Shown one piece after another: positions 42,400 to 44,828 of a stretch of 64,000 nucleotides of DNA. Both the position numbers and the translations under genes were made by a program. The notes below the pieces were generated by a model. It was not told where the DNA came from. It saw only the letters and a list, made by a program, of their open reading frames with translations, and searched no databases. Source of the stretch: an uncultured Pelagibacteraceae bacterium. GTDB taxonomy: Bacteria; Pseudomonadota; Alphaproteobacteria; Pelagibacterales; AG-422-B15. Numbering within the stretch: position 1 is the stretch's first letter; the number at the start of each line of letters is the position of its first letter. Location of the stretch: NCBI GenBank assembly GCA_902524795.1, contig CABZEU010000004.1, forward strand, positions 1 through 64,000, given 5' to 3'.

Positions 42400-43173
42400 A
42401 TGAGGAATAGATTTAAAAAACTCCCTAAAAAAAGGCAAAATTCAGACTACTGGATTTATGGCCATCATGCTGTTGTTGGCGCTATAAATAATAATAATAG
42501 AATAAAATATGAAATAAACTTCACAATTGAAGCAGAAAAAAAGCTCTTTCAAGAAGTAGACATAAAAGAACTCAAATTTGCCAGGAGACATAGATCGAGA
42601 GAAGAAATTGAAAATCTACTAGGAGGCATTTCAAATCATCAAGGGATTTGCCTCAAAGTAGAAAAGCTTAAAGTGCCCGAGCTTAATGAAATTTTGGATA
42701 ATTGTAATAAGGAACACTCAATCATTGTCTTATTAGATCAGCTTGAAGACTCACAAAATGTAGGAGCAATTTTTCGTTCCGCCCTAGCATTTAAACTAGA
42801 CGGAATAATACTGACTCAAGATAACTCTGTAAGTGAAAATTCATTTTTAACGAAAGCTGCATCTAGTGGAGTTGATAAAGTTCCTTTTACAAAAATTAAA
42901 AATATAAGTTCTTGTATAAAAAAATTAAAACAATCTGGATATTGGATTTATGGCTTAGAAATGAATGCTGGTAAATCTTTAAAAGAAACAAAATTTCCTA
43001 AGAAGGTAGTAATTATTCTAGGTTCAGAAAATAAGGGCCTTAGGAAAATTACTACTTCACTATGCGATGAAATAATCAAAATTGATATAAGTGGTGAATT
43101 GGAAAGTTTAAATGTATCCAATACTGCTGCGATTGCATTTTATGATATTTCTAACTCAATTCTAAAGAGCTAG
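42400..43173 (+). CDS. TrmH/RlmB-family RNA 2'-O-methyltransferase
   Basis: SPOUT motifs: LLDQLEDSQNVGAIFRSALAF, ILGSENKGLRK, LNVSNTAAIAFY; N-terminal substrate-binding region YGHHAVVGAI. Confidence 0.94.
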   Translation: MRNRFKKLPKKRQNSDYWIYGHHAVVGAINNNNRIKYEINFTIEAEKKLFQEVDIKELKFARRHRSREEIENLLGGISNHQGICLKVEKLKVPELNEILDNCNKEHSIIVLLDQLEDSQNVGAIFRSALAFKLDGIILTQDNSVSENSFLTKAASSGVDKVPFTKIKNISSCIKKLKQSGYWIYGLEMNAGKSLKETKFPKKVVIILGSENKGLRKITTSLCDEIIKIDISGELESLNVSNTAAIAFYDISNSILKS

Positions 43174-43331: not shown

Positions 43332-43407
43332 GCCCCTATAGCTCAATTGGTAGAGCAATTGATTTGTAATCAATAGGTTCGCGGTTCAAGTCCGTGTGGG
43401 GGCACCA
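43332..43407 (+). tRNA. tRNA-Thr (TGT)
   Basis: GCCCCTATAGCTCAATTGGTAGAGCAATTGATTTGTAATCAATAGGTTCGCGGTTCAAGTCCGTGTGGGGGCACCA; encoded CCA. Confidence 0.96.
43355..43407 (+). repeat. Direct repeat copy 1 (anticodon arm to 3' CCA within tRNA-Thr)
   Basis: 52/53 identical to 44137-44189. Confidence 0.93.
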
Positions 43408-43422
43408 CTTAAATTAAAAAAT

Positions 43423-44022
43423 CTATTTCTCATCAATTACCCAGGCATAAACCTCTCCCTTTTTATGATGAGGGTGAATTAAATTATTAAACTTATGTTG
43501 GTATTTTTCTGAAAATTTACAAAAATGCCTTTCAGCAAGAACTTCAAAGCAATCAATTGCAATGTCTAAAGGCCACTCATCATAGTCATATCCATAAATC
43601 ATTATGACCTTTTTGCCTTGGAACCCTGAGTTAAGTAATTTTTTTATATCACCTAAAACACTTCCATCTCCTTCATACGGGGATAATAAATCAACCATTA
43701 TAAATTCCTCAGGAGTGCCATTATTTCGAAGTCTTCTCATTGCTTTAGCTTCAATAAAATAATTATTTTCATCAGACTGCCAGTAAATATCCAGCTTCTT
43801 TCTGCTTAAGTTTGGATATTTTTCTTCAGTTACAATCGAATCAAATATTTGATTTTGATTTTTCATTTCATCTGTAACCATTTTAATTAATTTTTTCTCC
43901 TGAAATGGTCCGATGCCGGGTGAATACTTTATATCTGGTTTTCTTGCATTGGAAGCTTGGGGCGCTTTAGCGTCAACTATCTCTATACATTTTGCAAAAT
44001 GGCTAATGAATTCCGAAATCAT
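43423..44022 (-). CDS. Putative PD-(D/E)XK-fold nuclease-like protein, otherwise uncharacterised
   Basis: LDIYWQSDENNYFIEAKAMRR matches the D-x(n)-E-x-K core pattern of PD-(D/E)XK enzymes; assignment by motif only. Confidence 0.55.
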   Translation of the reverse strand: MISEFISHFAKCIEIVDAKAPQASNARKPDIKYSPGIGPFQEKKLIKMVTDEMKNQNQIFDSIVTEEKYPNLSRKKLDIYWQSDENNYFIEAKAMRRLRNNGTPEEFIMVDLLSPYEGDGSVLGDIKKLLNSGFQGKKVIMIYGYDYDEWPLDIAIDCFEVLAERHFCKFSEKYQHKFNNLIHPHHKKGEVYAWVIDEK

Positions 44023-44136
44023 ACTAAGTAAATATTACTCCGAAAAAATACAAAACAAAAGTTGTGATAAAATTTAACCCAAAAATACTTATTCTATCAT
44101 TTTATGCTTTACAATCCCAACACCGCTAGACTGCGT

Positions 44137-44189
44137 GCAATTGATTTGTAATCAATAGATTCGCGGTTCAAGTCCGTGTGGGGGCACCA
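44137..44189 (+). repeat. Direct repeat copy 2: truncated tRNA-Thr 3' fragment (tRNA remnant)
   Basis: GCAATTGATTTGTAATCAATAGATTCGCGGTTCAAGTCCGTGTGGGGGCACCA; one mismatch to tRNA-Thr; 5' tRNA half absent. Confidence 0.93.
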
Positions 44190-44201: not shown

Positions 44202-44828
44202 CTAGTCTGTATAACCGTTAATTGACTTAGTCGTAGGACTTTTTGTAATAGATTTATTATCTTTTAGGGTTTTAAAAAAATAATCACCAATCATGTTGGT
44301 TATGCCCCAATTATAATTTTCATTATGAAAGTGGTGGCTCATATGTGCATCACGAAGACTTTTGCCGACTTTAGTTATAGGTTTATAGTTTTTTGAATGG
44401 TGTGCTAAGTGGATCCACTCGTACCAAAGATGGTAAATCAGATGTCCGGTAAATGGGACGATAGCTGCACCAAAGCTCCAAAAAATTAATGAGTAAAACA
44501 AATAAACCTGACCATATGTATAGATTAAATATCTCCAAGGTGCGAACTGGAGTTTTATATTATCAGGATCTCGATGATGTCCATGATGAAGAACTATTTG
44601 GTATCTTCTATACCAACCATCTTTCTTTGTAAGCTCAACGTGTAACTGATATTTGTGAACATACCATTCATAAAATGGAGCAAGAAGTATTGGAATAAAT
44701 ATCCAGATTAAATAGTCATTTATAAGACCTGTATTAAATATATAAAATACGCCTAATACAGCCATCAGTATAAAGCCTACTACGGTTGAGTGAGAAAAAT
44801 AATTTTTGAATACAGTACTCATATTCAT
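44202..44828 (-). CDS. Fatty acid hydroxylase / sterol desaturase superfamily membrane protein
   Basis: Histidine clusters HHGHH, HLAHH, HMSHHFH with several TM segments. Confidence 0.85.
   Translation of the reverse strand: MNMSTVFKNYFSHSTVVGFILMAVLGVFYIFNTGLINDYLIWIFIPILLAPFYEWYVHKYQLHVELTKKDGWYRRYQIVLHHGHHRDPDNIKLQFAPWRYLIYTYGQVYLFYSLIFWSFGAAIVPFTGHLIYHLWYEWIHLAHHSKNYKPITKVGKSLRDAHMSHHFHNENYNWGITNMIGDYFFKTLKDNKSITKSPTTKSINGYTD

Follow-up and report, generated by a model that had tools for sequence, protein, structure and literature searches.

SAR11 bacteria are among the most abundant cells on Earth, and their tiny genomes hold few recognisable mobile elements. What, then, is to be made of a SAR11 tRNA gene that is followed by a second copy of its own 3′ end, with a single gene lodged in between? 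The stretch of DNA analysed here (the window, 64,000 nucleotides, from a genome designated G000 that comprises 1.11 Mb in 35 contigs and is 80% complete) contains such an arrangement. Gene content and the pelagiphage links described below place this genome in the SAR11 order. Its intact, functional tRNA-Thr(TGT) gene (43332..43407, plus strand), a 76-mer found unchanged in same-genus relatives, is the target. From nt 24 in the anticodon arm through nt 76, this gene (43355..43407, plus strand) is repeated in the same orientation at 44137..44189, with 52 of 53 positions identical and a single mismatch, G43377 against A44159. Including the flanking TTAAA, 59 bp are matched at 96.6% (E 2.6e-23); the repeat with one mismatch and a similar TTAAA flank, as given in the preliminary description, was thus confirmed by alignment. 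Among the other tRNAs of the window, none has a comparable displaced copy. The inserted unit (43408..44189, plus strand) measures 782 bp and, again as first described, holds one long open reading frame (199 aa, minus strand) and no integrase of its own. Its att repeats start in the anticodon region of the tRNA, as they do in tyrosine-recombinase elements at tRNAs. After insertion, the tRNA-Thr gene is the attL of the unit, composed of a 5′ part from the host and a 3′ part borne by the element, while the displaced copy of nt 24–76 is the attR. To the left lies a SpoU-family rRNA methylase gene of the rlmB/trmH type (42400..43173, plus strand), a conserved neighbour of this hot spot in both SAR11 families; to the right lies a fatty acid hydroxylase-like gene (44202..44828, minus strand), which directly adjoins the tRNA in empty sites.

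A repeat of this kind could by itself be produced by simple duplication of the tRNA 3′ half, with no mobile DNA involved. The same locus in relatives speaks to this. It was defined in same-genus genomes as SpoU methylase, tRNA-Thr, insert, and fatty acid hydroxylase-like gene, with the tRNA and the right flank required on one contig, which gave 26 loci including the window. Five of these are empty (G003, G018, G032, G013, and G022), the 782-bp unit being missing at the same site. In sixteen, a displaced copy of the tRNA 3′ end can still be discerned in the insert, and the cargo genes differ; in the inserts of the remaining five, the tRNA copy can no longer be made out. Two of the 26 (G023 and G025) additionally contain a long block of type II secretion-like genes. 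In the empty sites, the sequence following the tRNA matches the window sequence beyond the displaced copy, which is what an insert that supplied a new tRNA 3′ end should produce. Both the empty sites and the alternative cargos between the same repeats that the preliminary description had proposed to seek were therefore found, and the outcome it named as fatal to a mobile unit, namely that all relatives carry the same one, did not occur. The window unit is more than old decay. The empty sites and varied cargo, the phage arm beside the copy (described below), and the recurrence of the same layout in many genomes, including those of the other SAR11 family, argue against simple duplication, which is rejected here as extremely improbable.

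Most units carry one long open reading frame each, and their cargo is varied. The clearest accretion is found in G016, where four tandem one-gene units of 515, 513, 488, and 399 bp each have one main open reading frame; three different proteins are among the cargo of this genome. Elsewhere the cargo includes a 91-aa protein (many genomes), a 72-aa protein ending in CC, small lipoprotein-like proteins, and, in G036, an HNH protein with a weak PADLOC match of the type IV restriction type. The same tRNA stands beside the same methylase in the second SAR11 family, where it is followed by units of 584 to 1916 bp and, in one case, by a 7.6-kb unit with a helicase-like protein. The latter (L066, genome G065) lies between tRNA-Thr copies, encodes other large proteins in addition, and looks like a defence system; a truncated 5′ piece of tRNA-Thr (nt 1–41) is situated about 5.7 kb upstream of it. 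Several cargo proteins from different units of this family (L063, L207, L208, and L209) start with a near-identical signal peptide, MKKLLGIVVLGLL..., which suggests a shared family of secreted cargo. Two or more exact copies of the motif are present in 24 of 148 sampled SAR11 genomes, a lower bound because displaced copies decay.

The sole cargo gene of the window unit (43423..44022, minus strand) encodes a 199-aa protein originally labelled nuclease-like. The label can be kept tentatively for a PD-(D/E)XK-like pattern, D78...E91-x-K93, that is retained in one close relative of 42% identity; the best Pfam match, to the SfsA RE domain (E 0.016), falls below the cut-off. PHROGs, PADLOC, and the PDB gave no usable match, and an AlphaFold model built from a two-sequence alignment reached a pLDDT of 42, too poor to interpret. 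A search of 398 SAR11 genomes with the relative, from G073, returned only G073 itself, G000 (42%), and G316 (23%), and peptide patterns retrieved no relatives from viral contigs or genome contigs. The G073 homologue (L070:3-1873), the only close relative of the window gene, is located near groEL and not at a tRNA; it adjoins a 418-aa open reading frame with weak matches to a PADLOC defence candidate (PDC-S26). Upstream of the window gene, a weak extended −10 promoter-like site (44091..44120, minus strand) lies partly within the phage-type arm. The number of promoter-like sites there does not exceed shuffle expectation, and its assignment as the cargo-gene promoter is suggestive only.

Have these units moved, or were they each formed in place? 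The 91-aa cassette gene is identical (273/273 nt) in G016, G009, and G043. Between G016 and G043 a flanking gene is 74.1% identical while the unit of about 400 bp is near-identical; conversely, G043 and G031 have flanks of 98.9% identity and cassettes of 94.1%. The G016 and G043 units are near-identical all the way from tRNA repeat to tRNA repeat, and the match ends inside the repeats. When one flank clade was put to an AU test on the tree of the short 91-aa gene, the result was not significant (p 0.18), so the case for movement rests on the pairwise identities; judged by these, the unit shared by G016 and G043 spread by lateral movement, not vertical descent. The same cargo also occurs away from tRNA-Thr. 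A second variable locus, between genes named from sequence as DUF1674-like and DUF985-like, contains the same 91-aa and 72-aa genes (L123–L126 and L130–L154; G006, G021, G028, G041, G013, G014, G015, and others) and is empty in other genomes. Each cargo there ends in some 16–20 nt of the tRNA-Thr anticodon arm (CAATTGATTTGTAA). In G050, which belongs to another genus, the gene of G016 unit 1 is found at 86% nucleotide identity directly behind tRNA-Phe(GAA) (L206:1-520). From these two sites it follows that cargo passes from one attachment site to another, and not only from genome to genome.

These comparisons bear on a further explanation, in which incoming DNA recombines homologously through the 53–76 bp tRNA repeats and no site-specific recombinase acts after the first insertion. 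In every genome the repeats match exactly or almost exactly, the identity of units ends inside them, and the G009 unit looks recombinant within its cassette, from two cassette types; all three observations are in keeping with such exchange. Yet homologous recombination explains neither the first insertion nor the phage arms, and the same cargo is present at the DUF1674–DUF985 locus and at tRNA-Phe in G050, sites without those repeats. As the general account it is distinctly unlikely. Lateral movement bears equally on the idea that the units are prophage remnants: after integration, a large internal deletion would have left the att ends and one beneficial (moron) gene, each unit being a dead scar made once. 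SAR11 streamlining favours deletion, as this idea requires; however, identical units at flanks of 74% identity, together with the four-unit array in G016, call for movement as units.

If the units move by site-specific recombination, which enzyme acts on them? G000 and nearly all its same-genus relatives encode only two PF00589 tyrosine recombinases, both Xer-like; with G000 80% complete, an integrase could be missing from the assembly. Since G000 and most relatives yielded no other tyrosine recombinases, and since XerCD is known to move dif modules in Acinetobacter, the host XerC/XerD pair might be thought to mobilise the units in like manner. The repeat, however, is the 53-bp end of a tRNA held in common with a phage attP that lies beside a phage integrase, which makes the host pair a highly improbable agent. 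Integrases at other tRNAs in relatives (G050, tRNA-Lys; G056, tRNA-Met) were set aside, their target not being tRNA-Thr. None of the genomes examined yielded an intact prophage or helper at tRNA-Thr.

The preliminary description had asked for integrases that target this tRNA, and integrases with a matching tRNA-Thr attP turned up in phages. When 2.9 million viral contigs were scanned with the tRNA core, phage contigs came up that carry only the 3′ part of tRNA-Thr. Six of them (L106, L110, L161, L170, L175, and L186) have the order integrase, partial tRNA-Thr, T7-type RNA polymerase, and in two others (L108 and L109) the side from tRNA to RNA polymerase is visible. Pfam confirmed the integrase and the RNA polymerase in L110 and the integrase in L106, and integrases of HTVC019P-type pelagiphages share about 40% identity with that of L110. 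In L108, L109, and L110, the tRNA part of the attP starts at nt 24, the very boundary seen in the window. Where other viral contigs had a full-length tRNA-Thr gene, it was discarded as an ordinary tRNA, not attP. A separate contig has at L187:7329-7384 an attP that is 100% identical to nt 21–76 of the tRNA-Thr from the other SAR11 family; its integrase is more distant. Beyond these contigs, roseophage CRP-810 integrates into tRNA-Thr, and a SAR11 prophage of its type is also on record (PMC11288001). No phage contig was seen to contain a cassette between two att copies, nor was the DNA of the common 91-aa cassette found among them; a protein 54% identical to the 91-aa cassette protein is encoded beside terminase and portal genes in one viral contig (L112:4980-5273).

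The kinship of units and phages extends past the tRNA core. Immediately to the left of the displaced copy, and abutting it, the window has a phage P-arm sequence, ATCCCAACACCGCTAGACTGCGT (44114..44136, plus strand), which matches ATCCCAACACCGCTAAACTGCGT of L108–L110 at 22 of 23 positions. The arm at the right end of the window unit scores 44, as against 27 for the best of 300 dinucleotide shuffles. The combined arm-plus-core motif occurs in seven of the 2.9 million viral contigs, all bearing attP and all from the same phage group; no viral contig yielded an exact match to the window P arm. A P arm is also present in G016 unit 1, likewise above 300 shuffles. On the other side of the core, P′ arms exceed 300 shuffles in G016 unit 1, G023 (score 170; shuffle maximum 41), and G033 (71; 36), the integrase being lost in all three. 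G016 unit 1 thereby fits both arms and one gene into 515 bp. The three P′ arms lose their homology where the second inverted-repeat half finishes or no more than about 11 bp from that point, which lies at the extreme 3′ end of the integrase gene. Since arm homology stops there, the units evidently keep the att sequence and lose the integrase. In the window unit no P′ arm was detected, though core and P arm are present, and most units are without a recognisable phage arm on either side.

Phage arms retained at the outer ends of some units speak for prophage remnants, as does the 54% relative of the 91-aa protein beside phage terminase and portal genes. Set against this, the endpoints of three different P′ arms almost coincide, and the units examined hold at most a few integrase codons and no RNA polymerase remnant. 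Independent scarring is accordingly an unlikely account of the family, although the units may have started out as prophages that a deletion reduced to one gene, and exchange by homologous recombination at the 53–76 bp repeats may move them too.

The preliminary description had left two possibilities side by side, either a very small cargo unit that inserts site-specifically and is mobilised in trans, or what is left of a larger island after all but one selected gene was lost. That formulation holds up well, and of its two halves the trans-mobilised unit is the better supported because identical units recur across lineages and in arrays. We lean towards regarding these elements as nonautonomous, one-gene integrative att units at tRNA-Thr(TGT) that are probably mobilised in trans by phage integrases. 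The attachment site of a cassette would consist of the 3′ part of the tRNA, from anticodon arm to CCA, plus remnants of the phage attP arms. A phage of the T7-like pelagiphage type that uses the same tRNA probably supplies the tyrosine integrase, which would recombine the att site of the cassette with the tRNA of the host. Because the cassette brings a replacement 3′ end, the tRNA would be left intact, while the old 3′ end would be pushed downstream to decay there. Repeated insertion at the restored tRNA would then build tandem one-gene arrays. Phage particles or co-excised prophage DNA may carry the units, and cargos such as the nuclease-like protein may serve phage exclusion or defence.

How does this arrangement relate to known systems? 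Additive islands with direct repeats of tRNA fragments have been described in Ca. Actinomarinales (PMC7771536), and the fGI-2 of Ca. Methylopumilus at tRNA-Lys ranges from 330 bp to 42 kb and from 1 to 63 CDS (PMC10872708). The likeness is considerable: a tRNA hot spot, partial-tRNA repeats, variable cargo, and streamlined aquatic hosts. The window insertion likewise adjoins a tRNA and has a direct repeat of part of it, its cargo varies among close relatives, and empty sites and tandem accretion are both seen. Unlike those islands, the SAR11 units mostly hold one gene, and some have phage attP arms matching an integrase-bearing phage group; the excerpts of the two island descriptions (PMC7771536, PMC10872708) name no integrase source. 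Islands with tRNA-fragment repeats were thus already known, and the SAR11 one-gene units with phage arms are the new part. HTVC019P-type (T7-like) pelagiphages have a related integrase (about 40%) and a partial-tRNA attP beside integrase and RNA polymerase, and a 46-bp tRNA-Leu fragment was reported in one HTVC019P relative (PMC3861242). The units differ from such phages in lacking phage genes and keeping only arm sequence and one cargo gene. With integron cassettes, CALINs, and the dif modules of Acinetobacter they share a small cargo plus site per unit, tandem arrays, and a recombinase from elsewhere; their site, however, is a tRNA gene end rather than attC or dif (by inspection the repeat, a tRNA 3′ end, is unlike attC), and the presumed recombinase is a phage integrase. 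Tycheposons, of 4–200 kb and with a tyrosine recombinase as defined in PMC10872708, are likewise marine, cargo-carrying, and located at tRNAs, whereas the window unit has 782 bp and no recombinase. Phage satellites of the PICI and PICMI types are again marine and cargo-carrying; they are recognised by their own integration, regulation, or packaging-related genes and by induction and packaging through a helper, whereas the window unit has a single cargo gene. The control genes that phage satellites carry are absent from these units. A description of a SAR11 tRNA-Thr cassette system was not found in the open-licence papers searched.

A wider proposal, offered tentatively and with less confidence than the mobilisation of the units themselves, is that one cassette system is common to SAR11 and the phages that target its tRNAs. 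In it, tRNA 3′ ends would be the recombination sites and integrases would act in trans on single-gene units of about 400–900 bp, possibly devoted to phage exclusion, that are shuffled between lineages and tRNA sites, integron-like but with no resident integrase. The helper is open to test because phage contigs with a matching attP and integrase exist. Integrase-less one-gene units built on phage attachment sites and exchanged at full identity among diverged lineages would explain how single genes are gained without mobile-element baggage, and phages may be shuttling single genes between highly streamlined bacteria.
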